Origin: Asterella californica
Lineage: Eukaryota; Streptophyta; Marchantiopsida; Marchantiales; Aytoniaceae
Direction of reading: 5' to 3'
Assembly: GCA_036924285.1 (NCBI GenBank)
Contig: JAYKYS010000024.1
Coordinates: 744,001 to 808,000 of the forward strand
Length of the DNA stretch: 64,000 bases
Made by a program: the position numbers and the translations under genes. Within the stretch, counting starts at the first letter, position 1, and every line of letters starts with the position of its first letter. Below, piece by piece: positions 5,402 to 43,500 of the stretch. The notes under the pieces were generated by a model. That model was not told the origin of the DNA. It was given only the letters and a program-made list of their open reading frames with translations, and ran no database searches.

Positions 5402-5405
5402 ACGG

Positions 5406-10049: not shown

Positions 10050-10769
10050 CTAGATAGCAACATCACCTACGCGCACTCTGATGTCTGGACAAGCTCCATA
10101 CAAGTCTCCTCTAGTGTTGTTGGCTGCTCTTATGACCCATCCATGCTCTGTGTCGATCGGCCACTTCTTTCTCTTGTACAGCTCTTTCGACATGATGTTG
10201 ATTTCTGATCCATGTTCGATCAGAGCAACCACCGGCTCATCCAAGTCCTCGATCCTCACCAACGTCTCCATCGTAGCTCGAGCCCAGTGACTGTGGCTGT
10301 AATGACTTGAGCTCCGCTTCCCATCCTCCTCTTCATCCTCAAAATGCACCCTGCGCCTTCGATCTCTTTCTTCCTCTGCAGAATAGACACTGCACGTTGC
10401 AAGCTCTCTCTCCTCATCCACAGACATCCTAGTGTCCAAAGCATGCGATAAATCAGTCTCACCCGTAATCTGTCGTTTCCATTTGATGACATCGATGATA
10501 ACATCATGAAACTCACGCGTGACGATGCCTAACACTTCTCTCAAAGTAAACTCCACCTTCGCATTTAGAATGCGATCTTCCAAGACTCCCTTCAAGTCTG
10601 TTGACGCCTCGATATCCGACTGTAGCTTGTACGCAGCCGGCTTACCCTTCTCCTTCTGAGATTTCTCCTTCGATGGAGAAGGAGCATCGTCCATCGGTAG
10701 GTCTTGAGTTCCTGCATCCCGAAGCTCTTGGCGAACCTTCTCCCCTCGAGTCTGTCTCTTGGAAGAAGT
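10050..10769 (-). pseudogene. Element B protease region of gag-pro
   Basis: This continues the gag frame after one in-frame stop at 10770-10772. A basic and acidic N-terminal region is followed by the retropepsin-like block VALIEHGSEINIMSKEL. In element E the same block begins VALIDHGSE, so the catalytic Asp is replaced by Glu here and this copy should be inactive. The motif is D-H-G in the related copy, not the usual D-S/T-G. Downstream, an NNTRGDLYGACP block is shared with E. The frame ends at a stop at 10050; homology continues past it into the region before RT. Confidence 0.75.
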
Positions 10770-12275: not shown

Positions 12276-12310
12276 AGTTCACACACAGAAGAAATCTCCA
12301 CCCCAGACCT

Positions 12311-12327
12311 TCACGACGAGTTCACCA
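12311..12327 (-). promoter_or_regulatory. Candidate primer-binding site of element B
   Basis: On the minus strand, three bases after the LTR end, the sequence reads TGGTGAACTCGTCGTGA. It starts with TGG, complementary to a tRNA CCA end. I cannot name the tRNA. Confidence 0.4.
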
Positions 12328-12330
12328 CCG

Positions 12331-14351
12331 TATCGTGTCGGATATTGCGTGAAGGATGTCTAGGAAAACGCGAGGTTCCTGGCTGTGGAGATGTTGTGCG
12401 CTGAAACAGAGACAAGACAGAGAAAAACAACCACGAAAACGAACGTTGCGATATATACACTCCAAATGTATGTACACTGTCAGCTCTTCCTCCTAAGAGC
12501 ACAGAACTCAGAACCAGACCAGAGCATTCTGTAACCTACTTCAAAAGCCTATGAAAACAACCCTTGAATCGCAACCCTGACCAAAAAACACCGAAGCGTA
12601 GCTCAAAGCAAGAGAAACTTCTCTTTGCTAACAAGCAGAGCCACAGCAATATCACGCGATCCAAACCCAAGTCCAAACCACATCCATGTACAAGTTCTTA
12701 GCTAAAGCTAGCTACCACAAGCTGTATATAGCCAACCAGAACTCTAATGAACTCAAAAGAGCAAAACCCGTAGCGAAGAAACCGAAAAAGGCCTATCTGT
12801 GAACTTTCTCCTTTCGCCAAACGGACTTCAGATGTCGATAGGGTCTCCTCCACTGACTCTGTTAACCCAAGAAATCTTCAGATCCGACTCCCAACAGCCA
12901 AGATATCGCCGATTTTTGGTCGCAGGTGACCGAACCTCCAAAAACTCCTCCTTGCGGCTTAAAATCGCACACACCGCACAAACAGATCGTCCAAACTGAT
13001 ATCCGTCTTCTCTAGCAGGTAGATCTAGCTACCCTGAACCCAACGAGACTCCAAACAAGTCGTTTGAAGTTCCCCTTGCAAAACCACGCAAGAAATTTGG
13101 TCGCAAGTTGCAAAAAACTGACGTAAATCAGCTCCCTGCGGCTCAAACTTGCTCACCGCACCCAAACCAACAATCCAATTCACGTATGGTCTTCTCCTAT
13201 GCGTAGATGAAGACTCCCTGATCGCGTAGGCACCAAGAACGAAGAGCTTGGCTCACCGATCGCGAAGAACAATCTAATCTCAGGTCGCAGGCGATGAAAA
13301 ACTTGACGCAAGCGCTTCTCTGCGAGCCAATTTCACTCACAACTCCTAAACCGCCCGATGAAACCTTGTATCGTCTTCAATTTCCTGAAGAACTCGTTGT
13401 TTTGATCCGATGGATCCAAGGACAGCAAGTTTGGACTCCGGAACGACCGGAACGGTCCAACTCTCCTTCAGAGGTAACTGAAAACCTCAAATCTGCTTCC
13501 TGCGTCTCAATTTCTCCCAGAACACAACCCCCCGATCCGTCTCTTCAAGAACCGTCTTAACCTGTGCGTAGCCTGCACAGGTCTTAACCCGATGACACCT
13601 GGCGCGCGTGTATTGGACTTCCCAATTCTCCAAAACGTCCACCGACAGATCGTAGGAACAAGCAAGCCCCTTAAGCAGCCCCCTTACAGCAGTCTCTGTA
13701 CGTACAGTTTTCTCCTGAATAATAAGAAGCAGGCCCCTTGCGTCTTTGATATAACGCCTGAAGCCCTAAATACTCAGTCAGCAAGTAACTAGGGGCCTAG
13801 CTTGATTTTACCTTCTTTCGAATCGCATAACTTCTTCTCTGGATGTCCAAACGAAGTAAACAAGATGCCCATGGAAAGCTGACAACGAGCTCTACCCATC
13901 TATGTGATAAAAGTGAAGATCCAAAGTTGCGCCAAAAGCCCGTAAGCTGGGGCCTAGCTTGTTTTCTCCATCTTTCGAGTCTTGTAACTTTTCCACTAGG
14001 CGTCCAAACGAAGTAGATGAAGTGCCTATGGAAAGCTGACAAGGAGCTCTATCCACTAATGCGATAAAAATGAAGATCCGAAGTTGTGCCAAAAACCTGT
14101 AAGCTGGGGCCTAGCTTGTTTTCTCCATCTTTCGAGCCCTGTAACTTCTCCACTAGGCGTCCAAATGAAGTAGATGAAGTGCCTATGGAAAGCTGACAAG
14201 GAGCTCTACCCATCTATGCGATGAAAATGGAGATCTGAGATTGTGCCAAAAACCCGTAAGCTGGGGCCTAGCTTGTCTTCTCATGAGTGTCTTTGGAGCG
14301 ACAAGCATCGAAGTTTTGAATTTCAGGTAGGAGCCGGTCCACGACACGACA
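12331..14351 (-). repeat. 5' LTR of element B, full length (2021 bp)
   Basis: The inner end is matched to the outer end of the truncated 3' LTR by the shared sequence TATCGTGTCGGATATTGCG on the + strand. The outer end is fixed by the ACGG target duplication at 14352. The outer third holds 157-bp tandem repeats. Short + strand reading frames repeated in both LTRs (6369-6635 and 13294-13560) are antisense to the element and look like chance. Confidence 0.8.
13792..14275. repeat. 157-bp tandem repeat, three units, in LTR of B
   Basis: GGGGCCTAGCTTG recurs at 13792, 13949, 14106 and 14263, exactly 157 bp apart. The units differ by only a few bases. They lie in the part of the LTR expected to be U3, so they could be promoter or enhancer repeats; that role is inferred. 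Confidence 0.85.
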
Positions 14352-14355: not shown

Positions 14356-15925
14356 AAGGTCAGTTGGTGAAGTATGGACCAACAGGGCAACATGAGACGA
14401 AGGAGGAGACCTCGGAAGAAGACGACCGAGCAGCAGCCGCAACTCCCCCTCCCACTCTGATGCCGCAGCTGAGGCCTAGCACTCACCAGAAGACGCTTCT
14501 GGTGAAGGAAGATGACTCTAGTGGGTCGAAAGACGTCACGCCTCCGAGGAAGATGGGTCCTAGAAGTATACCTAGGAAGACCACCTCCCTTATTCATTCC
14601 CTTACCTCGGAGTCTGACTCACCGGAGGAGTCCTTGAGCACCCGAGCTGAGCAGAAGACCGCTTCTGCCACACAAGGGAGTCTTCCGAAAACTCCAGAAG
14701 ACAAGGGATGGATACTCCTACTGCGATGCGAGGAAGCACAGTAAAGAGGACCGCAGACGAAGACCGATGAGCTCAAGACTATGACATCGGAGAAAGAGGA
14801 GCTTCTTCGGCAGAAGATGGATCGCGAGAAAGAACATGAGAAGGTTCTTTCTCTGATGAAGAAGGAGTTGGATGAGATGCGCGGGCAGCGAAATAGGTAC
14901 CAAGACACCGTCGTCGCTATGACGAAAGAGGTCGAAGATTTGAAGCAACGCGTCATCAAGGCCGAGGAGCTGGGCGCTCAACTTCGGAGTAGGATCGAGC
15001 CAACGTTAAAGAACTACTTCGCCGTCGAATTGGATACCGAGGAGCTGGGATTTCTTCACCAGATTAGAGAGGAGTTTGTAGCTGCAGATGCAGAGAGTAC
15101 CTCAACCAAGAACTGAGTAGCTAGGCTAGGCCAACGGGTAGTTAGGGAGCTTAGGGAGGTTAGAGCAACCGTAGAGTTCTCAGTTTGCGAGATAGGTAGA
15201 GAATTAGCAATAGGAAGCGGTGTTGTTCCTGGTGTCGTTTCAGACGCAGGACCTTCATCGGACGGGCCAGGAGTACTCCCGACTTCTTAGGAAGAAGATC
15301 CGTCATCTTCAGGAAATTCTGTATATAAGCGTTGTGTTGTTCGTATTCAGCACCTCTATGTGTTTTATCATTTTTGCATTTTCTATTTCCTGAGTTTGCG
15401 GAGCCATTGAGTGTTTGTCTACTTCGGGGATTTACCTACGAAGTATCGTAGTTTGCTGTGGTAGGAATTAGTCTGGGTGCCGAAGAAGTTCAATCTGGTA
15501 CTTCGGCGGAAGAAGAGTCTTCTTCGCTAGAGTTTTCCGAGAGCAGTAGTAGTGAAAGTAACTTAATGTGAAGATACTTAGCATTTATTGTGTTAGAGGC
15601 TACCTAGTAGCACTTCAGCAGTACTTCCTCGTGTGATATTTCCGTCCGTGGCTCTGTTTCTCTGTTGTTCATCTGTTTCTTGAGGTCCCTGACCTGTTTA
15701 GTATCTGTTATGTTATTTGTCATGAATTATCAACTCTGTCTTGTTGGATAGACCTGAGTTTGATCTCTATCGAGATTGATTTCTGCCCGTGAGAATAAAA
15801 GACAACCATAAAGAATCACCTTTGTCATATGTTTACTACTTTTGGATGATCTTTACTTGCATCTCTGTGGGTTCGATCCTTAAATTACTACTTTCGAGCA
15901 TCTTTTGATTTTCTTGTGTGTTACA
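14356..15925 (+). repeat. Left LTR of element C, part 2 (A-type then C-type)
   Basis: 14356 to about 14745 aligns with A-type LTR sequence at 43155-43545. From about 14750 to 15925 it aligns with the right LTR of C at 50300-51628, ending in the same GTGTTACA. A stretch matching 51037-51190 is missing at about 15490, between short GAAGAA-type repeats. The switch lies within the LTR-embedded coding region of both families. Confidence 0.75.
14781..15116 (+). pseudogene. LTR-embedded ORF, coiled-coil part (hybrid LTR copy)
   Basis: This open frame matches the C-terminal part of the ORF in the right LTR of C (50334-50843). It is rich in Glu, Lys and Leu with heptad-like spacing, a likely coiled coil. 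It ends early at a TGA at 15114, where the other copy reads through to 50843. Confidence 0.6.
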
Positions 15926-20245: not shown

Positions 20246-22233
20246 TGTGGTGCCCACAAATTACAGGATGCATAAATTTTTAAAATTTTTGAGATTAATA
20301 ACTTGTTTGTATAACTGAAGAAGCGTTTGTTACTTAAGGTTACGTCTTCCTTAACAGGAAGATGATCTTAAGAGCTGTTTGTAATAAGAAGTTGACTTCT
20401 TCGGAAGATGGCCATCTTCTCAATTGCGTCTTCGGAAGACGGGAAGACGGCGGAATACGGGACGACGGTGGAAGACAACCATCTTCCGGAAGACAGCGAC
20501 CGCGAAGGCCTGACCACGGATTTTTCAATAGAGGAGTGGTTGTACCTACTGGGTCGCACCGAATAGGTAGGTAGGTCGGGGAAGACACCTAAGGTCGAAA
20601 ATCCCTAATCTGCGGAGAAGATGCACAGGAAGCGCATTAGCACATTCCAACTTCCCGCAGCACAGCGCGCTTGAGAAGATCGATTTGAGAGAGTGAGCTT
20701 CGCAAGTGAGCTTTGAGAGAGGAATCGAGTGAGGACATCGAGGTAGGAGAGAACCAGTTGGCAGCTAGGCGAAGGACGAGACCGAATTGCTGGAGCACGG
20801 AAGGCAGAGAGCGAAGGTGTTTCTGTGAGCTCTCGAGAAGCTGACATTGGAGAGTAGCGAGTAAAATCGAAGGTGAAATCGAGGCGTGGCCAAAAATTGA
20901 CAGCAGGCGCAGTCGTGAGGAGTCGCATTGGAGCTAGGACCAGAGCCAGAAGCGCACGGAGGTCGAAGGCAACTCGGAGAGCAGAAGAAGACTGTAGAGG
21001 TTCTTCCTCACGTTCTTTCCCCTTCCCACTTCTTCTCGTCTTTGTCTGGTATTCCCCGCGCTTCCTTGGTTGGGTGCAGGCAGCCTGATCGATTACCCCC
21101 ACCCCCCATTCTTTCTATTGAGACATTGGGTGCGGAAGCGCTGCCCAATTTCTGTCAGACATCTTCTTACTTCTTCCTAAGTTCAATTCGAGCTTCCCTA
21201 CACCTCGTCCTCAAATTGACAATCTCAGCTATCAATTTCCCTACCCTACTACCTCTCTACCCCCGAAACCTGGAACAGAAGACGATTCGGAAGATGGGAA
21301 CATCTTCGGAAGACGCTTCTTAAACTTGACTGTCTTCGGAAGTCGACTGAACACAATTCGTATCAAGAGTGGATTTGTGTTGCTTTGTGTTAAGAGAGGC
21401 TTGGTACGAATCCTGAGTGGTGTGGTGAGTTGTTTTGTTATTTCGAGAAGTTGGAAGTCGGGAACTAGGCCTGACCCTCCCGGTCTTCCAAGCTTCTCAA
21501 ACTCCACATCTTCCTAGAGAGACTAGAAGACTGAAAGGCTGGCAAAATGAGCAAGAAGACGTGAGGGTCCATTTCGGGTCTCTTCTGTCGAACCCATAGC
21601 AGCCATTCCTTCTTCTTCCCAAACTTAGAAGAGAGTCGTGAGAATACTTGCTAGCAGAATCTGGAGAGAATGGTCGAGGGTCATGTCTTCCCACCGAGCA
21701 GCAAGCTTCTTCTGAGTGCGTATGAGAGGTGAGAAGTCAGAAGAACAGAGTGCAATTGTCTTGAGTCTGTTGTGAGGATAGATTGCGTGTAGGAAGACGA
21801 AGACAGGTGAGACCAGTGAAGGGAAGTCTGACTTCGGGAGGTCTTCCGAGAAAGACATTGAACCGGAAACTGTCCTGAGTGTCTTCCCATAGGCCACTGT
21901 TACCGTAGGAGCCGCAACCATCTTCTGAACTTGTCATGCATTTTATGTTTCGTGAATCTTGTATCTTCTTATAGGGAGTAGGATGTAATGCAAAGTGGGT
22001 TGTCTTCTTGTTAATCCATGCGAGGCCTTGCTTAGATAGGATTGTTTAGATATAGCACGGAAGACGAGAGCTATCTAGGTAGTACTGTTAGAATCCCGTA
22101 AGACAGAGTAGCTGTCTTCTGGAAGACTAGGTTTGTCTTCTGAGAAGTAGAAGCTAGACTGTGGGCACTTGGGAAGGACTGAGTCTTCAGCTCATAGTAA
22201 GTGCTTGTGGCTTAGTGCAACAGATCTTCCAGC

Positions 22234-23826
22234 ATGACGATGCATCCGCGAGGCTTGGTGTTACCAGCGGCGGAATTGGCCGAGGCCACTCCTTTCCTCA
22301 AGGAGTTGGGTCTCGACTTCTTCCTGTGGGATTGGAACCTCGCAGATCAAGGACTTCTGGAGGAGGTGTGGGCAGCGTTGCCACCTCGTAACCGTGTACC
22401 TGCGAAGGCAGGAGTAGCTCGAGGAAGACCATCTTCCTGGACTGAAGATTGGTGGCGCATGACTTTTCACAGGCCAGAATCCGAGAACCTAGGATATTTG
22501 CACGAGAAGAAAATCTTGCCTAGGATCGTGAGTTCGTGGCATGTGCTTGGGAGCACCACCTGCCTTTTTGTGGAAGATAGACAGGGGAGGAACGGTTGGA
22601 AGATAGAATCTTACCGGGAGCCGAGAAGCGACTTCTGGCGAAGTTGTTTCTGCATCTCTTTCCCAAGAGGAAAGCGCAGAAGACAAAGTACTTAGGAGAT
22701 CAGGACGTGGAGTTCCTGGAATCAGTGTGGGATGACAGAACGCCCATCTACTGGGGCGCGTACATCCACAACTATGTACAGACGGAGCTAGCATACTTGG
22801 GTACCCCGGCAGGAGGACACTTGACGCCCTTCCTCTGCTACTTGTATGTAGCCATGGGAGATCTTAGGGAAGATCAGCTGGCAGGGTACCCGATAAGACC
22901 TGCTGAGTACCCGATAAGAGCAGAAGACCGCTTCTGCAACTCCTGGGAGTCTTCCGAAGACTCCAGAAGACGAAGGATGGATGAGCGCTCCTGCTGTGAT
23001 ACGAGGAAGCGCAACGAAGAGAGCCGCTCCTCATCAGGAAGTCCTCCGAGTGCGGGAGAAGATCACCACCCTCGCAGAAGAGCAGACCACATGGAAGACG
23101 CAGCGAGAAGCTGCAGAAGTGCGAGCTGCAGTTGAGAAGACGCAGCGGGAAGCAGCGGAGGCTCGTGCACAGAAGATGTTGACACAGTCGGTGGAAGCGC
23201 TTCGGAAGAAGTTCAACTACACCGCGGGTAGGAAGTTACTTACCTTAGCTAGAGGATGGGACAGCGAGTCCAAAGCAATGTTGGTGGAATGCCGAGAGAG
23301 CATGTTCAGGTACTTGGATCGACAGATAGAAGGAGTGAAGACACTTTATGGTCTTCCCTCGCTTCCGACATCTGCAACCGCATCTTCCCAAGCTCCAGCA
23401 CCCTCGACTGGATCCGGAATGTGAAAGGAGGAGTTCGATCTCGCTGTGCACTTGGTGGTGACAGCGTTGGAAGCCGAGAAGACTTCAAAAGACGCCCCGG
23501 AAGACAGGAAGACGAGCCGTCTTCCCATGTATTTCGCGTGGAGGAAGCGACTTCCCCGGATCCCTATGACCGCACCCGTGCCTCAGAAGACGGAAGAAGC
23601 ACTGGTCGATTCCGCTTCTCAGAAGACGTTTCTGTCTTCCGAAGCAGAAGCCGAAGCCAAGGAAGACGCAGCAGCAGCGACAACAGGGCCAACAAGAGAC
23701 GATGAGGAGGAAGCCACCTCAGTGACACCCGAGGTAACTGCAGGGCTTTTTAGCTTATCAGAAGCCGCGTTAGGAGCTCCGATAGGAGCAGATCAGGTAG
23801 AGATTGCCTCCGTGCAATCTGAGTAG
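22234..23826 (+). pseudogene. LTR-embedded ORF in 5' LTR of element A
   Basis: This copy matches the one at 42519-44833 but has two internal deletions. The N-terminal domain (LDFFLWDWNL, GRNGWKIE) is followed by the coiled-coil region (VLRVREKITTLAEEQ, LRKKFNYTAGRKLLTLARGW) and an acidic tail ending SVQSE. The coiled coil and tail are in one frame from 22981 to 23826 with a single TGA at 23422. No known domain is recognised. Confidence 0.65.
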
Positions 23827-25100
23827 TTAGTAACTCCATTGACAATTCCAAATATAGTAGGATCGAACATGCTATCTTAAGGGTGGCAGTTTTTCCGTGT
23901 AATATTAGTTAGGATACCATGTGGCAGCATAGGTAGCATAGGAAGGACAAGGTGGATGGCCAATTCGGGCAAGGGAACCGCTTGCATGTGAGGTGACAAC
24001 CTCCTGTCAGCGCCTCTCTCTCCCTGGTTGTCGTCTCCCCTAGTTCTCATGGCCGCGACATAAGTAGGATCGCAGAGTAGGAGATAGAGTTCTGCCAGTT
24101 CTGAAAAGTTCAGTAGTCGATTCTATGGAGAGGGCAGACTAGACACATTAGAGAGAAGACACCTGATAGATAGTTCTTCGCACTACTGCCGTTGTTGGAA
24201 ACATACGAATAGTCTTGGAATACACAGGAGGGGTCTACATACTCGTACCAGCAGTGGTTCGAAGATGTAGATAGAAGTAGTGGACAGTCTAGGAACAGAG
24301 AACGGCATCCTCGTGCAGTCCTGTTAGCTAGACTGGTGTGTCGAGGAGTAGACGCAAGAAGTAGAGGGAGTGAGCTTCCCAATGCCATTGTGACTTCTTC
24401 TCGGGGAATAGATTGTGGATTTGAGTGCAGAAACTTTGCTCATGTCTTCTGGATGGTGGGTTCCTTGAATTCGCTCCCAATTGTACATGGGAAGTGTTCT
24501 TCTTGAGTGGCGATGACTGTCAGCAATTGTGGAAGTGTAGCTTGGCTCGTTAAGTAGAGCACTTGGGATCTACGTACGAACGGTCTTATGGGTAAGGGAT
24601 CCCAGAAGACAGAGTAGTCAGAGCAGCGAAGTGAAGAAGAAAAAAGTCTTCTTCCCACAGTAGAAGACTACATCCTCGAGTAGAAGACGGTGCAACAGTA
24701 CTCACGTTTGTTGTCTTCCTCCCCAAACTATTACAAGCAGGGATGGCTTGTTAGTCAGGATCCGGACTAGAAGCCTGTCGGAATCTTAATTTACTCTTTT
24801 CATCTTATTTTTCTCTTGTTTGGATTTTCTTATCTTCCCCATCTTCTCCCATCTTCCTCATCTTCTTACCTTCTTCTAGTGAGCTTCCGAGACTTCTATT
24901 GAGCTTCTGTGAAGGTGAATGTCGTTGTAGTGCTGCAGGAAGACTATTTCCGTAGGCAGAAGCCTGGGAAGGCTACAGGGGCATACACCCTGTTATTGAT
25001 CTAACCCGTTGGAATGTAAGTGTGAGAGTAAGGTGTAACAGCCGAACTAGTCGACTTCTGCGAAGCAGGACAGCCTTCTGGAGATGTGAGAAGACGAGCT

Positions 25101-25394
25101 TGTCACGTCAGTTTGGGCACCTCGGCTAGGTTGACCGAGTGCGAAGTGACGCATCCCGGTAAGGCCGTTAGTGCCGTTAGGGCGAGTTGGAGAGAGAGCC
25201 CACTAGGGGTAAACTTCGCAGGTAGGGCTTAGAGGCCTTAGTTCTTTGAGTTGAGCCTTCAAGCTCCAGGCTATGGTGGATAGTCTAGTTGAGTGTAACC
25301 CGGATTCTCTTCGCGTTTAGAGTGGGTTTGGCTTGACCGTTTGTGAGTAATCCTTGTTGTGGTGTTGGAGATGGTAATCTCTGTATTCAGATTA
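25101..25394 (+). repeat. 5' LTR segment of element DM
   Basis: These 294 bp match 34382-34675 almost perfectly. The 108-bp segment that follows in the 3' copy (34675-34782) is absent here. Confidence 0.85.
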
Positions 25395-26944
25395 CTCAAA
25401 GAACTGAGTGCAGGTCGAGGCGGAGTTCAGTAAGAGCTCGCAGATCTGAAATTGGAAATCGTCCGCTGGTATCTTCGGGCGTTGTTGTTCGTGGTTGATT
25501 GTTTGGAGCTGTGATCGAGGTGTGTGGGCGCCGCGCTACATTGCTGGTCGCAGATCGATTTGCTGTTGATTGGGGTCGAGTGGAGATTTCTGTCATGCGG
25601 AAGCGCTGCAGAAATTTTGCGGAATGTTCTTGAAGTGTGTTGTTGGAGCCGGATTGCGCGTTTGGGCGTAGCAGCTGAAATACTTGTCAATGTCGGGCCG
25701 GAGTGGACTCTTTGGAAGCGCATTGGAGAGACGATTCTAGCGCACTAAGTTTCGTGGAGTTTGGCCAAGGATTGAAGAAGTTATGGCATGTCGAAGTTCG
25801 CTGCCGTGAAACCCGCAAGCACTAAAAGGCTAGTTACGTCAGATTTTGGCTCAATTTCGTGGAGAAACTCGAGTTTAGTAGTTGTTTTGTGTGCGTGTTA
25901 GGAGTCATTTAGAGGCTTCGAGGAGCAGAGGTGCGTGAGTGCGGAGGCGGAGCGGAGCGGAGCTGAGCCTGAGCCTGAGCCCGAGCCCGCGCCCGTCGCA
26001 AGCCAGCTTGCTGGCGTGCGTGAGAGAGGTATCCAAGCTTCAGGTGTGTGGGAAGGGTAAAACCAGCTGGTCACCCATCCCAACACTATTCCTGGACCTG
26101 GACTCTTGACTCTGTAGTCTTAGCTTTGGCTTTACCACTAGACCAATAGCTCTTGGTGTCCTACAGGGATGCGTGCAAGTACTTATGGACTTGTATAAGG
26201 TAGTAGGAGACCTTCTCGCACGTCCCTAGAGGAGTGGTAGGGCGACCCCACAGTATTAAGGGGAAGCTATAGTTGTGGTAGTGTTTGCCTACACCGTAGA
26301 GGCGCGTATGGAGGCAATTGGTGGCAGTTGTCTTGGGTGAGCTAGTAGAGCTACCACGTGGATGTTTTTGGAGCTACTAGAGGTGTGGACATCTAGTTAG
26401 TGACCTCCAGTGTCAGTTACGACTGTTGGTGACCATATATTGTGCATGTGGTCACCGACAAGGAGTCGTCAGTCCGGGTGGGGCTGGGTTTCTCTTTATG
26501 TGAATGTTTGAGTGTGGAGGGTTATCGTTTGGACTTCTTGTGGTTGGAACCCCTCCATACTCTGCTTCCTGTTTGTGCGCCGCGTTTGCTTGTGTTGGCG
26601 CTTGATTTCCGGAGTGAGTTCACTCCAGTGTGCTGTCGATAGTGAGGTTGGAGTTGCGGACCAGTCAGACTATCTTTGTCTCTCTCACGGTGCGGTTGGA
26701 GTGACGACCAACAGACCGTGAGAGGCTGCCTGTGGTGATGGCAAGTACAGGTTGCCCTTACCTTGACCGTCCTAGTAGAGAATAGGTGAGCTCAGTAGGA
26801 GCGGGGTTAGGCAAGTGGTGGTTACGGTGGTGACGGAGATTGCGACATTCCGGTTGGGGAATGTGTTAGCGGGATTCTCTCATCACGGAGTTCTCGGGAG
26901 GTTCTGGTGGGGACTTCTCGGACAGTGGGTATACACGGAGTGGG
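25395..26944 (+). other. Leader of element DM, no supported gene
   Basis: About 1.55 kb lies between the LTR segment and gag. Reading frames here are short and overlap on several strands. There is a short GAGCCT/GAGCCC run at about 25960-25990 and a tRNA-like stretch at 26045-26162, listed separately. I found no TGG-initiated primer site directly after 25394. Confidence 0.5.
26045..26162 (-). repeat. Possible tRNA-derived (SINE-like) remnant
   Basis: Read on the minus strand, ATTGGTCTAGTGGTAAAGC resembles a tRNA D-arm and pol III A box. About 45 bp later comes GAGTCCAGGTCC, a weak B box, then GGGATGGGTGACC. Sequences of this form occur in plant SINE-like repeats and also resemble part of 5S rRNA. 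It is too degenerate to be a working tRNA. Evidence is motif-level only. Confidence 0.3.
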
Positions 26945-29900
26945 GTGAGGTACCGACTACCTACACCATTGCCGTCGGTTGTTCCAGAGGACGAGTCAGA
27001 CGCAGACAGCGCGTTTTATGGTGGTGAGTCTAGTGTCACCACACCGTTGTTGTGGGACATGGACGAGATCTATGGGGCCACGAAGGGGCCTCGACGTTAC
27101 TCGGGTACAGTTGGTACCATTGAGCTGGATGACTTCATCCAGGAGTTCGACAGTTGGTGCGATCTGCAGCAGATGCGGAACCCACAGCTGTTTACACCCT
27201 TCATGGCGTGGAAGGGTTTGTTCCAACACTTGGAGGGACGGCCGATGGACGGCCGATGGACGATTATCATGAGTTCAGGCGAGATTACAGTGTTGAGATC
27301 GAGTTGTGGAGACAACATTGGTCTCCCAACTACGTTTCTATCACTACTGGTGCAGTTTCGGGAGGCGTAGCACCTGCGAGTTCGGGTGCCAGTAGCAGTG
27401 GTACAGCCGCAAGTGGCGGAGTACCTACTACCAGCGGTGCGTCCACAGGTAATGGAGCGGGTGGTAGTGTGAGCGGGATACCACCAGGGTTTAACCCTGT
27501 GGTTCAGTTCTTCCAATGTTTGAGGAAGAACTATCAGGGTGTGCGGACCGACAAGTTGAGGAGTCTGCAAGAGTTCCAGCGGAAGAATGGAGAGAGCCTA
27601 CGCGAGGCGTTTACTCGCATGAGGCGGTTGATCAGCGTTACCCAAGGGGTGACGGAAGCACAAGCAGTTCAGTTCTGGTATGGGATACTAGACCGGGAGC
27701 TGCGTAGGAGAGTTAGAGATGCTACTCTTCTTAGAGATACCGCTCCGACGTTGGCGGTTGTCTTTAGTCTGGCTGAGCGGATTGAGCTCAACATGGTGGA
27801 GGAGAGGGTGGTGGTTGCTGGGTTCAGCAAGGAGACACCACATGGAGCGACCACCTCTTCTCGAGGATCACAGGCTACGCAACAGCGTGGTGATGGTGGT
27901 GGTGGTAAGGATCGTGCAGAGCAGTCACGATCGCAGGAAGGTGTAGGAGGATCTGGTGGGCAGAAGCCCATGCCGTCCTTCGCTAGTCAGCAGCAAGCGG
28001 GTCCTTGCTGGACGTGTGATGGTCCTCATCAGCAGAGGGACTGTCCACAGAGGAGAGGTTATGAGACGTCAGGGACATCAGGGACGTCTCCAGCACTACC
28101 TAGGCAATGTGAGCATTGCGGACGACCTGGTCACAGTAGTGACCGTTGTTTTGATCTCCATCCCGAGTTGCGGCAAAGGAAGGCTGATCGTGGACGAGGC
28201 GGAGGAGCTCAGGGAGGCCGTGGTGGTCGAGCTGGAGGTAGAGGTCCAGCACCTGGGAGAGGACCGGTCGGTCCACCGTCTGCTACGACGTCAGAAGCAG
28301 GTATGGCTGCTCGGATTGAGCAGTTGGAGCAGAGGATAGCTAGTATGGCTATGGCTCAGCGGAGATCAGGTGGAACAGAGGCTTCCACGTCTTATGGAGG
28401 AGAAGGAGATGACTTCGACTTCATGGCTGGTGTGGCGCAGATTGAGGCATATGCGGCAGTGACTAGAGGTGCAGTACGTGCCTCTGAGCCACGAGGTGCG
28501 TCAGTGGAGTTGGATCCACAACGCGGGGAGGCTGGTAAACAAGCCAGGCTCCCCCAGTCGTTCACGTTATCGGAGGCGTTGAGGACCACATCTATGGTTC
28601 CTAAACGACCTCCCGATGGTGCAGTAGAGTTGGAGGCATCGACATCCAGGAGTGGGTGTGATGTGAGTCCACCTTCGACGTCTGTGGATGCGACGTCGAA
28701 CTCGATGTTGGGGGCGGCTACAGCAGTTTTGCGAGCCCCACTGAGGGCATTGGGAGTCAACTTGGCTCCAGTGTTCCAGTTGGCGGCCACGCTCAGTGAG
28801 AGCGAGGATGTAGTTACCTCTAGTGCTGAAGTAGTTCAGCGAGAGGCGGTAGACGTGTCCATGGAGTCGAGGATCAGGACAGCTACCAGTGGTACTTGGC
28901 AAGCGGCGGCTGCTAGGTTAGATGAGTTACCAGCTAGGCTGGCGATTGACCGTGCTAGTTTGGCACCAGGTGTGGTATTGTTGGACAACAGAAGTGGTAT
29001 CTTTTGTTTGGTGGCACCTTCAGGGAAAGTGTATCGACCTCAGAAGGTCTTGTTAGACTCTGGAGCCCAACCGTTGATGTTGGGAAAGGCGGCGTGTATT
29101 GGTTTGGGTCTGAAGAAGTCCGAGATAGAGAGATGTCCATTCCAGTTGCAGACATCTCTAGGGGGATCAGGAGGTACGGCTCTGCACATGACACGTGAGA
29201 TGTTGACGGTGAGAGTTCGGCCAGATCACCCCACGGATGGCTCTATGGTGAGGGCCAAGGCCATCGTTACAGCCGCAGAGTCTTATGATGTATTGGTGGG
29301 AGGTGCTGTGTTGTACCCTATGGGGTTCGTGATCGACTATTGGGCGGAGACAGCATCTTACAGACCAGGTTGGCAGTCCGGTGAGGGACGAGTGAGCCGC
29401 TTACCAGTGCGGTTCAGTGCTAGAGTTGGGACGACGGAGCCTACACCAGGGACGATGGCATCCGTTGCAGGGTTCAGTTCGGTCATCACTTGGCCGGGCG
29501 AGTTGTTGGAGGGCAATGCTCATGCGGAGGATACTCCGATCTATGAGGAGGTGGAGGACATGCTTAGCATGTCTACGTTAGTACCATCTGCCTTGGATGT
29601 TCCACTCTGGAGTTCGAGTGGAGAGTTGCAGCAGTATGCTGATCAGTTGGTGCAGCAGGCTTGGAGTGAAGCTTTTGTACCACCAGTAGAGGAACAAAGG
29701 GTTGTTCTTGCTACTGGCCCTGTGACTTTATCACCGTTGGATACGACTCCCATTGTGTGGCAGTATCCAGAGGAAGGTGTATGTGTGCTGGAGCTGTTTG
29801 GAGGGATCAGCACAGGTTTAGTTGCGGTATTGCAGGCAGGTATACAAGTACAGCAATACTTGTATGTGGAGAGAGATGAGATTGCGAGACGCATCTCATT

Positions 29901-30906
29901 GCGACATGTGGCACGTTTGGTGCAGAGATATCCTGAGTTGTTGCCCATATCAGCTTTTAGAGGATACCAGCAAGCATTACCGTCGGATATTTCGCTGCTG
30001 GGGGCGCAGGATCTCACGTTTGTGGGCACCATTCACTTGGTGATAGCCGGATGGTCATGTCAAGGTCACACGCGTGCAGGGAGAGGTCAGGGTTTACATG
30101 ACCCGCGATCTAGGATGTTCTGGGAGATGTTACGGATCCTACGACATCTCCAGATGCATCAGGTGGATTCTCCAGCGTACATCTTGGAGAACGTTCCTTT
30201 GTTGGGTGATGCTCGTACACAGATGATGGCGAGTGTGCACCAAGTGCGGTCTTGGGTTGGACCAGCAGTGTTGTTGGATGCAGCGAGAGTGGGATCTCGT
30301 GCACATCGTCCACGGTTGTGGTGGACGAACTTGTTACCGAGAGAGGTGCTTAAGCACGCACACGATGGAGTGAGACGACCAGCGCACCTCACGATTGATA
30401 GCATCTTGGATGCAGGACGACGATCTCAAGTAGTGAGAGTCGTCGATAGGTCACCCATGGCAGTGGTGAACCTAGTGGGACGGCCCATGGTAGCATTACC
30501 CACATTGGTAAGCTTTCCAGCGTCACATCCTTACAGAGATGGAGGACCTGGGCTTGTGTGGGATGCTCAATTACGGCAGTTGGTGGAGCCCAATGCCGAT
30601 GAGAGAGAGCGAGCGATGAGTTTCACTACGGGTACGACGGTAGTAGCTTCGGTGTCGGAGGCTTCACGTCGTCAAGTATTGGGTCAAGCAATGGACTTGA
30701 ATTGCTTGACATGGATTGTTAGCCTTGGATTGGCTGAGCAGCGTCGGATGCGATCGACGGGTGTTACGGCTCGAGCACTCTTGAGCTCTTTGCCTACCGG
30801 GTCGGTGGAGGCAAAGGCTGGGGGCGAGGTAAGTGGAGTTCGTCATCCTTGGACATCATGGGATGTCATAGGAGAGAGTGTGGAGCTTGCAGCTAGAACT
30901 GCATAA
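26945..30906 (+). pseudogene. Element DM gag, protease and DNMT3-like cytosine methyltransferase
   Basis: Gag begins near 26945 in one frame and moves to the main 1250-codon frame (27154-30906) because GACGGCCGATG is duplicated at 27237-27258. In main-frame numbering: gag capsid to about residue 215; CCHC knuckles at 285 (CWTCDGPHQQRDC) and 319 (CEHCGRPGHSSDRC); protease LLDSGAQ with Asp635. Residues 876-1160 are a C5 cytosine methyltransferase: motif I VLELFGGISTGL, motif IV IHLVIAGWSCQGHT with the catalytic Cys969, motif VI ENVP at 1012, motif VIII AHRPRLWWTNL, and a C-terminal block ERERAMSF with RRQVLGQAMDL. The layout follows DNMT3A closely. The Pro usually before the catalytic Cys is Ser here. 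The frame ends at a TAA one C-to-T change from CAA. Confidence 0.9.
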
Positions 30907-33900
30907 GTTTTACGCACAGTAGCGGTGGAGGTTGTTGGTGGTGAGCAGAAGGAAACTGCTCCAGAGGCTGCAAGATAGCAGTCAACGACTTCGTCTTCTA
31001 CCTCTAGCATGGTGACAGAGGATACTTGGGAGCCAGAGATTGGACCCAAGCTTATAGGAGAGGAGAGACGAAGAGTCCAAAGATTCCTGAAGAGCTACAG
31101 GAATTGTTTTGCCTTCAGTATGAAGGATTTGGGTACCTTGAAAGGACCTGGTATACGGATCGACTTGGCTAATGACACGCCAATCTTTCGACGTCCTTAC
31201 AGGTACAGTGACATGGAGAGAGCCTTGATCCAGAGTCGGACTCAAGACTTGTTGGAGGCTGGGTTGGTGGAGATGTCGCATGGAGAGTATGCATCTGCCA
31301 CAGTTATGCCAGCCAAGAAGGATATGTATGGCAATTACACGGATAGGCGGATGTGTGGAGACTACCGTCCTATCAATCGGCAGACGAAGTCCGATAAGTA
31401 TGCCATGCCGACACCTGAGGAGATCTTTGATGCAGCGGGGCATGTGAAGGTCTTCAGTACTTTGGATCTTCGAGCAGGGTATCATTAGTTGCCAGTGAGA
31501 GAAGAAGATAAGTCCAAGACAGCATTTTGGGGAATTGACTCTCACGGCAAGGATTGTTTGTATCAGTGGCGGTTCTTACCATTTGGGTTGAAGAACGCCC
31601 CTGCTGAGTTCCAAAGGGTGATGGACAGCTAGCAGGATTGGATTTTGTCAGATGTTATATTGACGACATCTTAGTCTATAGTGCTACAGTGGAGGAGCAC
31701 GAGAGACACTTACGGGATGTGTTTGAGCGATTGAGAGCTCATGGGTTGAAGTTACACCCTAGGAAGTGTAAGTTCTTCCAGGAGTTGGTAGAGTATCTGG
31801 GCCACACCATCTATCCAGGTGGATTGGGTGTTCAACAGACGAAGGTTGAGGCTATTGCACGTATCCCACGCCCCACAGATGTGAGTCGAGTTCGAGCATT
31901 TGTTGGTTTGGCGAACTTCTATCGTCGATACGTGAAAGGATTTAGTGCAATTGCGAAGCCGTTGACCAAGCTGATGAAGGTGGACCAGGAGTGGCAGTGG
32001 GGAGATGAGCAGGAGCGAGCTTTCATAGAGCTCAAGGATAGGTTGACATCTGCTCCCATCTTGAGGAGACCCGTTAGGGGGCGTCCTTTCCAACTGCACA
32101 CCGATTGGAGTATGTTGGGACTTGGAGCAGTGCTGACTCAGCATGATGATGAGAAAAAGGAGTTCGTGGTGGCGTATGCCAGTCGCTCCAACAATTCAGC
32201 GGAGGCGAGGTATAGTTCGTATGAGGGAGAGTGTTTGGCGGCAGTGTGGGCTGTTGCACACTTTCGATGTTATCTGTTTGGGAACCCTTTTACTCTCATC
32301 ACTGATCACCAGCCGCTCAAGTGGTTGATGGAGTCCGACAAGCTTACAGGGAAGCTTGCACGATGGGCTCTGATCTTACAGGAGTATGACTTCCATGTAG
32401 TACATAGACCTGGAGTTGCAAACCTAGATGCCGACGGGTTGACTCGCAACCCGTGCACGAGTCAGCAGGATCAGACTGGGGCTCGCTGGCATGACGAGGT
32501 TGATGAGGAGATAGTGCCAAGGTGGCATGCATCTGCCTTTCTTTGTGTGTTGGCCATGAACTCTAGTATGGAGGGCCAAGTCGTATCTTTCTCTGATCAG
32601 AGAGTAGATGATGAGTCTCCAGATCCTGAGGGTGGAGATGGTGTTTCAGACCAGCGAGATATCCATGATGATGTGATCGTGATGGAGTATCTACGTACTG
32701 GTGTGGTAGTAGGCACAGTAAGTGCCAAGGAGCGAGATCGTGTCCTTCAACGAGCGAAGAGATTTCGACGAGAAGGACGACATGTACTTCGAGTGTGGGG
32801 TGATGGGAGGGTACGGATAGTACCACATCCATCCCAGAGGGCACAGTTAGTACGACATGCCCATGAGGAGTTGGGACATTTTGGAGTGAAGCGTACGCAT
32901 AGCTTACTCCAAGGACAGTATTGGTGGCGTGGTATGCACATCGATGTGCAACAGTTTGTCGCACGATGTGTGGTTTGTGATCGAGTACGAGCATCGTTTA
33001 ATGCTCCTACTCCACAGTTACACCCCTTACCGATTATGGGGTTGGGTTACCGTTGGAGTTTGGATTTTGCAGGACCCTTACCGTTGACCGTACGTCACCA
33101 CCGGTATGTGTTGGTGATGGTGGAGCACTTCTCCAAGTGGATTGAGTTGGTGGCATTACCAGACAAGGCGAGTGAAGGGACGGCGTACGCGTTCTTAGAT
33201 CGAGTGCTGAGTCGTTTCGGAGCACCAGCTGAAGTGCTGACAGACCAAGGTACAGAGTTCCTTGGTGAGTTTCAGGCCTTGTGTGATCAGGTGCTGATTG
33301 ATCATCGGACTACATCTCGAGATCATACTGAGGCGGATGGTTTGGCGGAGAGGGTAGTTCAGACGGTGAAGAGAGGATTGCGCAAGTATGGCTTGCAGAA
33401 GGGCCACTTGGGAGACTGGGATGTGCAGTTACCATGGTTGGCTATGGGCTACCGTTTTAGCCGACAAGCGTCTTTGGCTTCCTTCTCACCGTATTTCTTA
33501 TTGTATGGTCGAGATCCAGATCTACCTTCGGCCATTCGTCGTGATTCTGCTGAGGTGCTGGACCTTGATGACCCGGATATGTGGATGAGAGCATGTTCTC
33601 AACGAGCAGAGACATTTCGGAGAGTTATGCCTATGGCTTTTGAGAACCTAGCGATTGCCCAGCATAGAGACACGTTGCGGTATGCGACTATCCGAGGAGG
33701 AGGTTATCGGCCGTCGATTCGCAAGTTTCATCCTGGCGATTATATCTATCTACAGCAGACTGCACCGACGATGTTGGACGTGACCGCAGGGCGCACTATT
33801 TTACGAGTGCGTGAGGTGTTACCTTCTGGAGTACTCATGTTAGAGGGCCGTGATGGTGTTATGCGGAGGGACCATGTGCGTAATTGCGCGCCATGTCATC

Positions 33901-34100
33901 TTCCCAACATTGATGGTACCGTTGACCCAAGCTTAGCAGTTGTACGCGCGGGCTTGAGGTGTATGTTGTGTGGGTCTGCTGGTGGAGCAGCCCGTATGTT
34001 GGTGTGTGATGGTTGTTCGAGAGGTTGGGACATGTCATGTTTGACTCCACCTCTCAGTGTAGTTCCTACTAGACGGTGGGTTTGTCCTCGATGTATATAA
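30907..34100 (+). pseudogene. Element DM pol: RT, RNase H, integrase and PHD-like finger
   Basis: RT continues in the DNMT frame after stops at 30904 and 30976, with RMCGDYRPINRQT, and meets a TAG at 31486 in GYH-stop-LPV. A small deletion near 31632 shifts to the frame of the 820-codon ORF at 31638-34100, which opens at the active site YIDDILVYS. RNase H follows (HTDWSMLGLGAVL, YEGECLAAVWA, TDHQPLKWL). Integrase has a zinc-binding region (HEELGHFGVKRTH, CVVCDRV) and catalytic acidic residues in SLDFAGPL, LTDQGTEF and EADGLAERV. Residues 775-819 form a PHD-type finger: CMLC, VCDGC, GWDMSC, WVCPRC, with Asp where the zinc-binding His is normal. It occupies the place where chromoviruses carry a chromodomain. 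Confidence 0.9.
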
Positions 34101-34257
34101 CGGAGATAGTCGATTAGATCTTTGCGTGGTATGGATTGCAGACAGGCGACTAACGATGGGACAATGTAGCACCCGGCCTCCTGATCCTTGCACCCATGAA
34201 GGTGTGTATCACGTAGTTGGGATATGGAGCTATCTGGAGTTAGAGGGACCTAACCGC

Positions 34258-34272
34258 CAGTTAGGGGGGCGA
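34258..34272 (+). promoter_or_regulatory. Polypurine tract of element DM
   Basis: CAGTTAGGGGGGCGA directly precedes TTGTGGTACAC, the first copy of the 108-bp segment, so by the usual rule the 3' LTR should start here and not at 34382. Confidence 0.6.
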
Positions 34273-34782
34273 TTGTGGTACACTTGTGTATGTGTATGAC
34301 ATCGTCCATGTGTTATGTGTATGTGTGGTGTACCTCTGACAGCGATGTATGTTGTGTAGCGATGTGTATGCGCACGACAGCTGTCACGTCAGTTTGGGCA
34401 CCTCGGCTAGGTTGACCGAGTGCGAAGTGGCGCATCCCGGTAAGGCCGTTAGTGCCGTTAGGGCGAGTTGGAGAGAGAGCCCACTAGAGGTAAACTTCGC
34501 AGGTAGGGCTTGGAGGCCTTAGTTCTTTGAGTTGAGCATTCAAGCTCCAGGCTATGGTGGATAGTCTAGTTGAGTGTAACCCGGATTCTCTTCGCGTTTA
34601 GAGTGGGTTTGGCTTGACCGTTTGTGAGTAATCCTTGTTGTGGTGTTGGAGATGGTAATCTCTGTATTCAGATTATTGTGGTACACTTGTGTATGTGTAT
34701 GACATCGTCCATGTGCTATGTGTATGTGTGGTGTACCTCTGACAGCGATGTATGTTGTGTAGCGATGTGTATGCGCACGACA
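34272..34782 (+). repeat. 3' LTR region of element DM in permuted order
   Basis: The order is a 108-bp segment T (34272-34379), GC, a 294-bp segment B (34382-34675), then T again (34675-34782). The 5' end of the element has only B. Each T is GT-rich with repeated TATGTGTATG-like words. The outer boundary CGACA is fixed by the AGCT duplication. Confidence 0.85.
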
Positions 34783-35133
34783 AGCTGAACCCCCAGAAGA
34801 CGAGAATCGCTTCGGGAAGACGGTATCGAGAAGACCGGAAGAAGCAACCTGGAAGCAGGAAGATCGTCTTCTCGAGCTTCTCTGTGAATAATTGTGTGAT
34901 ATTTTAGTTGGTAGTTGTTTGATTAGTTCCAGAACACCATTTGGCGTGTCTGGAAGACGTGTGGTTTTGTGAGAAGACGAGATTTCTATGCAAAACCCGT
35001 GTGTTTGTGTTTTTGAAGAGATCTTAGAACTTAGAGCAGCGTTACTTGTGCAAATCCTCTGTGGGAATGATATCTTGTATACTAAATGGGCAGAAGGAGA
35101 AATCCTGCGTCACTACATATAGTGAGCATCCAT

Positions 35134-40518: not shown

Positions 40519-43500
40519 TGTGGTGCCCACAAATTACAAGATGCATGAATTTTTAAAATTTTTGAGATTAATAACTTGTTTGTATAACTGAAGAAGCGTT
40601 GTTACTTAAGGTTACGTCTTCCTTAACAGGAAGATGATCTTAAGAGCTGTTTGTAATAAGAAGTTGACTTCTTCGGAAGACGACCGTTTTCGGAAGAGCG
40701 TCTTCTCAGTTGCGTCTTCGGAAGACGGGAAGACGACGGAAGACGGGACGACGGCGGAAGACAACCATCTTCCGAAAGACAGCGACCGCGAAGGCCTGAC
40801 CACGGATTTTTCAATAGAGGAGTGGTTGTACCTACTGGGTCGCACCGAATAGGTAGGTAGGTCCGGGAAGACACCTAAGGTCGAAAACCCCTAATCTGCA
40901 GGGAAGATGCGCAGGAAGCGCATTAGCACATTCTAATTCCCGCAGCACAGCGTGCTTGAGAAGATCGATTTGAGAGAGTGAGCTTCGCAAGTGAGCTTTG
41001 AGAGAGGAATCGAGTGAGGACATCGAGGTAGGAGAGAACCAGTTGGCAGCTAGGCGAAGGACGAGACCGAATTGCTGGAGCACGGAAGGCAGAGAGCGAA
41101 GGCGTTTCTGTGAGCTCCCGAGAAGCTGACATTGGAGAGTAGCGAGTAGAATCGAAGGTGGAATCGAGGCGTGGCCAGAAATTGACAGCAGGCGCAGTCG
41201 TGAGGAGTCGCATTGGAGCTAGGACCAGAGCCAGAAGCGCGCGGAGGTCGAAGGCAACTCGGGGAGCAGAAGAAGACTGTAGAGGTTCTTCCCCACGTTC
41301 TTTCCCCTTCCCACTTCTTCTCGCCTTTGTCTGGTATTCCCCGCGCTTCTTTGGTTGGGTGCAGGCAGCCTGATCGATTACCCCCACCCCCCATTCTTTC
41401 TATTGAGACATTGGGTGCGGAAGCGCTGCCCAATTTCTGTCAGACATCTTCCTACTTCTTCCTAAGTTCAATTCGAGCTTCCCTACACCTCGTCCTCAAA
41501 TTGACAATCTCAGCTATCAATTTCCCTATCCTACTACCTCTCTACCCCCGAAACCTGGAACAGAAGACGATTCGGAAGATAGGAACATCTTCGGAAGACG
41601 CTTCTTAAACTTGACTGTCTTCGGAAGTCGACTGAACACAATTCGTATCAAGAGTGGATTTGTGTTGCTTTGTGTTAAGAGAGGCTTGGTACGAATCCTG
41701 AGTGGTGTGGTGAGTTGTTTTGTTATTTCGAGAAGTTGGAAGTCGGGAACTAGGCCTGTGCCTCCCGGTCTTCCAAGCTTCTCAAACTCCACATCTTCCT
41801 AGAGAGACTAGAAGACTGAAAGGCTGGCAAAATGAGCAAGAAGACGTGAGGGTCCATTTCGAGTCTCTTCTGTCCGACCCATAGCAGCCATTCCTTCTTC
41901 TTCCCAAACTTAGAAGAGAGTCGTGAGAATACTTGCTGGCAGAATCTGGAAAGAATGGCCGAGGGTCATGTCTTCCCACCGAGCAGCAAGCTTCTTCTGA
42001 GTGCGTATGAGAGGTGAGAAGTCAGAAGAACAGAGTGCAATTGTCTTGAGTCTGTTGTGAGGATAGATTGCGTGTAGGAAGACGAAGACAGGTGAGACCA
42101 GTGAAGGGAAGTCTGACTTCGGGAGGTCTTCCGAGAAAGACATTGAACCGGAAACTGTCTTGAGTGTCTTCCCAGAGGCCACTGTCACCGCAGGAGCCGC
42201 AACCATCTTCTGAACTTGTCATGCACTTTATGTTTCGCGAATCCTGTATCTTCTTATAGGGAGTAGGATGTAATGCAAGGTGGGTTGTCTTCTTGGTAAT
42301 CCATGCGAGGCCTTGCTTAGATAGGATTGTTTAGATATAGCTCGGAAGACGAGAGCTATTTAGGAAGTACTGTTAGAATCCCGTAAGACGGAGTAGCTGT
42401 CTTCTGGAAGACTAGGTTCGTCTTCTGAGAAGTAGAAGCTAGACTGTGGGCACTTGGGAAGGACTGAGCCTTCAGCTCATAGTAAGTGCTTGTGGCTTAG
42501 TGCAACAGATCTTCCAGCATGACGATGCATCCGCGAGGCTTGGTGTTACCAGCGGCGGAATTGGCCGAGGCCACTCCTTTCCTCAAGGAGTTGGGTCTCG
42601 ACTTTTTCCTATGGGATTGGAACCTCGCAGATCAAGGACTTCTGGAGGAGGTGTGGGCGTTGCCACCTCGTAACCGTGTACCTGCGAAGGCAGGAATAGC
42701 TCGAGGAAGACCATCTTCCTAGACTGAAGATTGGTGGCGCAGGGCTTTTCACAGACCAGAATCCGAGAACCGAGGATATTGGTACGAGAAGAAGATCTTG
42801 CCTAGGATCGTGAGTTCGTGGCATGTGCCTGGGAGCACCACCTGCCTTTTCGTGGAAGACAGGCAAGGGAGGAACGGTTGGAAGATAGAATCTTATCGAG
42901 AGCCGAAGAAGCGACTTCTGGCGAAGTTGTTTCTGCATCTCTTTCCCAAGGGGAAAGCGCAGAAGACAAGGTACTTAGGAGATCATGACGTGGAGTTCCT
43001 GGAATCAGTGTGGGATGACAGAACGCCCATCTACTGAGGCGCGTACATCCACAACTATGTACAGACGGAGCTAGCATACTTGGGTACCCCGGCAGGAGGA
43101 CACTTGACGCCCTTCCTCTGCTACTTGTATGTAGCCATGGGGGATCTTAGGGAAGATCAGCTGGCAGGGTATGGGCCAATGGAGCGACAGGAGGTGAAGG
43201 AGGAGACCTCAGAAGACGATGACCGAGCGGCAGCCGCAACGCCCCCTCCCACTCTGATGCCACAGCTGAGGCCCGGCTCTCACCAGAAGATGCTTCTGGT
43301 GAGGGAAGACGAGTCTAGTGGGTCGGAAGACGTCACGCCACCGAGGAAGATGGGTCCCAGAAGTGTACCAAGGACACCCATCTCCCTCATTCATTCAGGA
43401 TCGGAGTCCGACTCGGAAGAAGACCTGCTGAGTACCCGATCAGAGCAGAAGACCGCTTCTGCAACGCCTGGGAGTCTTCCGAAGACTCCAGAAGACGAAG

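Follow-up and report, generated by a model that had tools for sequence, protein, structure and literature searches.

A Ty3/gypsy family of Asterella californica with a DNMT3-type methyltransferase domain before a conserved UAG and a possible route of integration through joined cDNA ends

The window analyzed here is a 64,000-nucleotide stretch of the Asterella californica genome (NCBI GenBank assembly GCA_036924285.1, contig JAYKYS010000024.1, forward-strand positions 744,001 to 808,000; coordinates below count from its first letter). It contains a 9.7-kb Ty3/gypsy retrotransposon (25101-34782) nested inside another repeat, in which the genes follow in the order gag, protease (PR), DNMT, reverse transcriptase (RT), RNase H (RH), integrase (IN) and PHD finger, and in which the terminal repeats are split, unit B (294 bases) standing first and A-GC-B-A last, i.e., B-coding-A-B-A (Table 1). 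The element is flanked on both sides by AGCT, and an empty site is present in a paralogous repeat. An original prediction, made from the letters alone, had described a DNMT3-type cytosine methyltransferase within a gypsy polyprotein; the split repeats, the self-priming site, the integration pattern and the PHD finger were not part of it. Comparing the window with its sister copies in the assembly leads us to favor, with moderate confidence, a cycle in which a DNMT made at the Gag level, self-primed reverse transcription, joining of complementary DNA (cDNA) ends and opening of a palindrome by the integrase would act together.

The copy in the window is a damaged member of this family and no model of it. 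Its RT shares the frame of the DNMT and sits behind two stops, a TAG at 30976 found in 30/30 compared copies (the 30 most similar of 108 scored, the window among them) and a TAA at 30904 private to the window (1/30); further damage in the RT consists of a TAG at 31486 and a frame change before about 31638, and this copy also carries residues unseen in other copies. The gypsy context and the position of the DNMT between protease and RT, as originally predicted, hold by Pfam matches and by motifs read by eye. Within the frame 27154-30906, the gag match (expectation value, E, 0.03) and the CCHC match (E 0.65) both fall below the Pfam cut-offs; a CCHC-like knuckle at 28108 and the retropepsin-like motifs LDSGA (29053) and DVLVG (29287) were read by eye in the translation. 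Upstream, at 26900-27400, gag seems to be open in another frame in the window copy, and the frames of other copies stay open for as many as about 1380 residues.

Table 1. Features of the retrotransposon copy in the window
Feature	Position	Strand	Remark
Target-site duplication AGCT, left copy	25097..25100	.	empty site in paralogous repeat near 46048-46131
Repeat unit B, left copy	25101..25394	+	98.6% identity to 34382-34675; element starts TGTCACG
11-mer AGTTCTTTGAG, predicted RNA 5' end (R) and self-primer	25240..25250	+	complement of 25395-25405
Primer-binding site CTCAAAGAACT	25395..25405	+	adjoins B; complementary to 11-mer
Open part of open reading frame 1 (ORF1), window copy: gag, CCHC knuckle, protease, DNMT	27133..30903	+	
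DNMT3-type C5 methyltransferase domain	29764..30765	+	
TAA stop, private to window copy (1/30)	30904..30906	+	
TAG-CAG-TCA, conserved stop, UAG-CAR-YYA context	30976..30984	+	30/30 copies
RT-RNase H region, YIDD at 31656	31009..32430	+	broken in window copy
DDE integrase	32832..33400	+	H2C2 zinc site 32862-32978; D 33063, D 33243, E 33345
PHD finger, end of integrase frame	33960..34094	+	Pfam 2.5e-8
Polypurine tract GTTAGGGGGGCGA	34260..34272	+	same stretch at B|A joint of copy L138
Repeat unit A, inner copy	34272..34379	+	
Palindrome GACA-GC-TGTC, both element ends joined via 2 bp	34376..34385	.	identical in 24/24 other A-B-A ends
Repeat unit B, right copy	34382..34675	+	
B|A joint	34666..34684	.	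PBS-side cDNA end plus polypurine-side cDNA end
Repeat unit A, terminal copy	34675..34782	+	element closes CGACA
Target-site duplication AGCT, right copy	34783..34786	.	

The evidence that carries this cycle comes mainly from the ends of sister copies. For the end survey, 30 other copies, mostly with long open frames, were hand-picked from 107; both ends were found in 25 of them, and in the other five one end lay outside the fetched stretch. An exact 4-bp target duplication adjoins the permuted ends (TGTC...GACA) in each of the 25 copies with both ends, the left end being TGTCACG in 25/25 and the right end CGACA in all but one, which has CGATA. Conventional long terminal repeats (LTRs) at both ends of the insertion are found neither in the window nor in any of these 25 copies, the repeats being split. 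Twenty-three copies have the form B-int-A-B-A (int, the interior), one is B-int-A and one B-B'-int-A, where B' is without its first 19 bases and no A lies between B and B'. A scenario of ordinary linear-cDNA insertions rearranged later, or of the window copy as a one-off, would suit the repeat-rich surroundings but is contradicted by the 4-bp duplications lying exactly at the permuted ends in 25/25 copies and in the window, and we regard it as very improbable. Integration by a tyrosine recombinase in DIRS fashion, a possibility brought to mind by the split repeats, is more improbable still: no tyrosine recombinase match was obtained with Pfam in the three frames scanned, the catalytic triad of the integrase is intact (D-60-D-35-E), and the 4-bp duplications have no counterpart in the DIRS model as described in PMC3266345. 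Targeting to AGCT was considered and dropped, since three of 26 duplications are palindromic, with a slight preference for A as the first base and T as the last.

Equally informative are the junctions between repeat units. The A|B palindrome GACA-GC-TGTC is identical in 24/24 A-B-A ends. The B|A joint, which corresponds to the right cDNA end followed by the left one, is exact in 18/24 and varies in six (one extra base in four copies, a longer insertion in one, and a polypurine tract between B and A in one, L138); this joint varies among copies, whereas the remaining joints hardly do. A polypurine border at the inner A is seen in 25 of 26 right ends (all but L168). Since the polypurine tract borders A and the primer-binding site (PBS) borders B, ordinary reverse transcription would yield a linear cDNA A-B-int-A-B, and the genomic ends (start of B and end of A) are unlike the ends expected of such a molecule. 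Because the B|A joint varies, and once keeps the polypurine tract as an unremoved primer region would leave it, we read it as newly made by end joining. Alternatively, B-A-B-A could be copied whole, without end joining, from an RNA that extends through the terminal A, in a plain DIRS-like layout; the repeat order, which matches that of DIRS-type elements and of KnitGypsy-Dnmt3 as described in PMC5890265, and the 18/24 exact joints are consistent with such copying, but the variation of B|A in 6/24 (once with a polypurine tract) against a constant A|B palindrome, as well as the occurrence of B-int-A and B-B'-int-A copies, make it quite improbable compared with end joining.

How reverse transcription is primed is suggested by an 11-mer complementary to the PBS, which on the plus strand of the window occurs solely in the two B units (25240 and 34521). 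Among 9099 control anchors, 2 perform equally well, the two partners pair in the predicted fold, and 28 of 29 left ends located in other copies show the PBS; the wider fold around the PBS is unexceptional (z -1.31, with 25/200 shuffles as stable). These features point to self-priming of the Tf1 type, by analogy with which the predicted 5' end of the RNA would be complementary to the PBS. The 11 bases of the PBS are constant in 28 left ends (loci L095-L175), and the position immediately following them can be C, G or A. The window contains no tRNA genes.

The repeats also inform on age. Within copies they diverge at 28/9634 sites, or 0.29% (24 copies, window included, of which 12 have identical repeats), vs. 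2.1% between copies, which suggests that every cycle renews the repeats and that many insertions are recent. Transitions account for 26 of the 28 differences, a bias that methylated DNA would show but that may have other causes. A search of the 516.7-Mb assembly (4532 first-look candidates, 108 scored) revealed at least 108 copies, window included, the others being 95-97% identical, so that other genomic copies carrying the DNMT, anticipated in the original prediction, do exist; judged by sequence, the family is abundant and recently active.

The identity of the domain as a DNMT3-type cytosine-5 (C5) methyltransferase is confirmed, its activity being predicted from sequence and fold. All the motifs named in the original prediction are present (LELFGGISTG at 29788, GWSCQ at 30049, LENVP at 30184 and AHRPRLWWTN at 30301), with motifs I, IV (PC), VI (ENV) and VIII (RxR) in the canonical C5 order, together with a C5 fold. 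Pfam matches DNA_methylase to the frame 27154-30906 (2e-6; 27.9 bits, cut-off 22), and by sequence DNMT3A is the best match among solved structures (E 4e-9), followed by DNMT3B, DRM (0.0019), DNMT2 (0.0042) and HaeIII (0.0079). An AlphaFold2 model, obtained from the window's own letters and an alignment of 48 viral DNMT3-type relatives (predicted local distance difference test, pLDDT, 72; predicted template modeling score, pTM, 0.76), retrieved DNMT3-family entries in all of the best 50 of 142 Foldseek rows (E <= 0.001). By sequence and fold the domain is nearest to DNMT3, is without a DRM-like permutation, and matches C5 methyltransferases; a position outside them, which would have refuted the original prediction, is not what is seen.

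The ancestry of the domain is another matter. Phage and viral DNMT3-type enzymes score equal to or above DNMT3A, and a viral source is therefore possible. Phages often carry such enzymes (the window domain matches 183 of 50,697 phage records), and in viral contigs at least 463 of 600 candidate stretches are distant DNMT3-type enzymes; of these the best 80 were kept, 64 of them giving a complete frame by script and 48 entering the structure alignment. A direct search for relatives of the domain confirmed none among viral contigs (8 pattern matches) or genome contigs (39), and the RT-IN frame had no match in viral contigs. In a 63-row tree (52 of the 64 viral frames, of 240-400 aa, with 6 phage rows, 4 named proteins and the window) the domain, on an end branch of 5.5, joins DNMT3A, DNMT3B and two viral rows at a support of 81/54. 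A 28-row quick tree places it basally on the HhaI and DNMT2 side (support 31), and a one-clade test of the same 28 rows does not reject a clade with DNMT3A/B (approximately unbiased test, p-AU 0.64). With two eukaryotic DNMT3 rows in all, the trees do not settle an origin from eukaryotic DNMT3.

Conservation among copies is high. The 380 residues of the DNMT are free of stops in 28/30 copies; the catalytic Cys, ENV, W192 and N194 are present in 30/30, R187 and R189 each in 29/30, and the Pro of Pro-Cys in 28/30, with Ser in the window and one other copy (a functional SCQ motif was considered and dropped, PCQ being present in 28/30). The ratio of nonsynonymous to synonymous polymorphism per site (pN/pS) for the DNMT is 0.214 (28/30 copies; codon bootstrap 0.14-0.28), compared with 0.188 (28 copies) and 0.138 (22 copies) for RT-RH, 0.184 for PR (25/30 copies) and 0.49 for the PR-DNMT linker (26 copies). 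This comparison of the DNMT with RT, proposed along with the original prediction, shows at the codon level purifying selection on the DNMT, with a constraint about equal to that on the polymerase. Within the domain, pN/pS is 0.136 in the N half, which holds the catalytic motifs, and 0.38 in the C half.

The DNMT had been predicted to be part of a single polyprotein, and this claim stands in part: gag, protease, DNMT and RT do share one frame, but the conserved UAG (30/30) parts DNMT from RT. The TAG at 30976 is followed in all 30 copies by CAGTCA, which fits UAG-CAR-YYA, the type I stop-codon readthrough motif (described in PMC3542737). Over these copies the 30 bases before the stop show one difference and the 30 bases from the stop onward none; the longest frame 3' of the DNMT is the DNMT's own in 24/30 and another one in 6, window included. 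By this arrangement the DNMT is the end of ORF1, on the Gag side of the conserved UAG, and the likeliest main product is a predicted Gag-PR-DNMT, with Gag-PR-DNMT-RT-RH-IN-PHD arising via readthrough. Since it lies upstream of a probably leaky stop, the DNMT would be made at the Gag level and packaged. Production of RT-RH-IN-PHD by reinitiation at the ATG at 31009, with no readthrough, appears somewhat unlikely: this in-frame ATG lies 33 nt past the start of the stop codon, and conservation of the stop region would also fit other coding or RNA roles, yet the stop with its CARYYA context is unchanged in 30/30 copies and the 30 nt from the stop onward are invariant.

With readthrough as the preferred mode of expression, the proposed cycle would run as follows. 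The RNA would start in the left B and use 11 nt as its own primer, as in Tf1, after which ordinary strand transfers would produce the linear cDNA A-B-int-A-B, the ends of which would be joined, in a 2-LTR circle or a head-to-tail concatemer, to give B|A. The DDE integrase would open GACA-GC-TGTC, lose the 2-bp GC spacer and insert B-int-A-B-A with a 4-bp duplication; the B-int-A form could be the product of a 1-LTR circle, or of a linear cDNA cut at both palindromes. The likeliest job of a DNMT made at the Gag level and packaged would be methylation of the element's own cDNA before integration; because the DNMT precedes a leaky-type stop, many enzyme molecules per particle, and hence own-cDNA methylation, are predicted. 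Release of the DNMT by the element's protease and an influence on host methylation, both raised in the original prediction, are conjectural. Methylation, circles, readthrough and guidance of the integrase by the PHD finger are what we infer rather than observe, and the more specific proposal, that the family integrates from a 2-LTR circle via a palindrome-opening DDE integrase while a Gag-level DNMT3-type enzyme methylates the intermediate before insertion, is put forward tentatively, at a little under an even chance.

Several points weigh against this cycle. Both copy samples are selective, the 30 copies compared for selection being biased because they were chosen as the most similar, and those surveyed for ends having been picked by hand; the ATG at 31009 could offer RT-RH-IN-PHD a start of its own. 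Concatemers would give ends identical to those left by circles, and the substrate might accordingly be a head-to-tail cDNA concatemer or a two-cDNA joint in which the integrase cuts two A|B palindromes. In one copy (L159/L160) the left and right B disagree at a site by which subfamilies are also distinguished, as could follow from two joined cDNAs or from a later mutation; on the other side, 2-LTR circles are known to arise as by-products when retroviruses reverse-transcribe their RNA (as described in PMC11054761), and we consider a concatemer rather unlikely, although the present data do not tell it apart from a circle. As for the enzyme, motif I has Gly for Asp, and motif X has Gln for Asn and Met for Trp, in 30/30 copies, at positions that are nearly constant among 48 viral relatives. 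The viral relatives have the motif X Asn in 48/48 and the Trp in 47/48, but this Asn is no strict requirement because DNMT3A itself has Arg there. The DNMT of KnitGypsy-Dnmt3 from Klebsormidium nitens gave no methylation in yeast, a result called inconclusive by its authors (in the text of PMC5890265). CpG depletion, considered as a mark of self-methylation and dropped, is not seen (observed/expected 0.77 in the element vs. 0.72 in the window). The altered motifs and the yeast result would fit a domain that does not methylate and instead binds DNA or RNA within the particle; we find such a role rather unlikely in view of the catalytic Cys and ENV kept in 30/30 copies and the low pN/pS of the N half.

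Among known systems, Tf1 of Schizosaccharomyces pombe has conventional LTRs and is not known to carry a DNMT, and Klebsormidium nitens has a genome of about 0.1 Gb, a host different from the 517-Mb genome considered here. Like the present family, Tf1 is a Ty3/gypsy element, and the first 11 nt of its RNA are described as complementary to the PBS (PMC7175516). Retrotransposon-borne DNMTs were indeed reported in 2018, as the original prediction had stated, including gypsy elements with Dnmt3 in K. nitens (de Mendoza et al. 2018, PMC5890265). Set beside KnitGypsy-Dnmt3 by description, the element is of the gypsy-Dnmt3 kind by its Dnmt3 domain and DIRS-like repeat order; shared features are an LTR Gypsy assignment, a non-rearranged Dnmt3 domain, purifying selection and DIRS-ordered repeats (PMC5890265, Fig. 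4 legend). The same paper places the KnitGypsy-Dnmt3 DNMT in the Pol ORF, unlike the DNMT of the window family, which ends ORF1 before a conserved stop, and the portions of its text on which this comparison is based mention no target duplications, palindrome, self-priming or PHD for that element. SymbioDIRS-Dnmt3 and SymbioLINE-Dnmt are likewise retrotransposon-borne DNMTs, but of other retrotransposon classes and another host lineage; the SymbioDIRS-Dnmt3 domains are described as methylating CG in yeast (PMC5890265). DCM-encoding Ty3/gypsy and DIRS elements are described in several lineages, green algae included (PMC6338049). The DIRS/PAT elements resemble the family in the split repeats of PAT and the circular intermediate of the DIRS model, and differ from it in having a tyrosine recombinase and no target duplication (as described in PMC3266345) in place of a DDE integrase and a 4-bp duplication.

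For retroviruses, integration from a circle junction was proposed in 1984 (Panganiban and Temin) and displaced by linear DNA from 1987, according to the account in PMC11054761. The 2-LTR circle junction model is similar in that integration proceeds from a palindromic joint of both ends; it differs in that linear DNA proved active in retroviruses (PMC11054761), whereas here the palindrome is fixed inside every A-B-A end seen. Among the open-licence PubMed Central papers listed in searches, those on gypsy-Dnmt3 elements were PMC5890265 and papers citing it, and none of those listed was on a gypsy family said to integrate via a circle junction. DNMTs carried by retrotransposons are already known, as is a gypsy-Dnmt3 element whose repeats are DIRS-like (PMC5890265). 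What is added to the portions of that paper's text compared here, some of which its figures and supplements may contain, comprises the 4-base duplications at permuted ends, the palindrome and the joined cDNA ends, as well as predicted self-priming, the position of the DNMT ahead of a leaky-type stop and the PHD finger. The available text of the papers found on gypsy-Dnmt3 elements gives no route of movement, and the ends of 25 copies supply a concrete one. If true, integration by a DDE integrase from an internal joint would bring back, in a retrotransposon, a model abandoned for retroviruses in 1987, and because the family is young and abundant, both this claim and that of cDNA methylation could be tested in one culture.

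The PHD finger that closes the integrase frame is nearest to those of an MLL3 homolog (1.6e-12) and KDM5B (1.1e-11), and may tie the integrase to chromatin. Ginger transposases, which have gypsy-like integrases, are described as including one with a PHD finger (PMC2836005). An unusual zinc ligand was considered and dropped: the ligand is Asp in the window copy and His in 18/18 other loci holding the PHD finger.

The window holds other repeats as well. Another long repeat is present twice, at 20246-25100 plus 34783-35117 and at 40519-46418, with about 94-96% identity; the first of these is interrupted by the DNMT element, and the second has the empty site. Another gypsy element lies on the minus strand at 5401-13716, with LTRs of 1391 bases that are 97.9% identical. 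A repeat pair about 97% identical (14752-15925 and 50305-51628), some 35 kb apart, may mark both ends of a larger element that takes in most of the window. Finally, at 54138-55928 a frame with a DUF4100 match (1.2e-6) overlaps the start of an RT frame.

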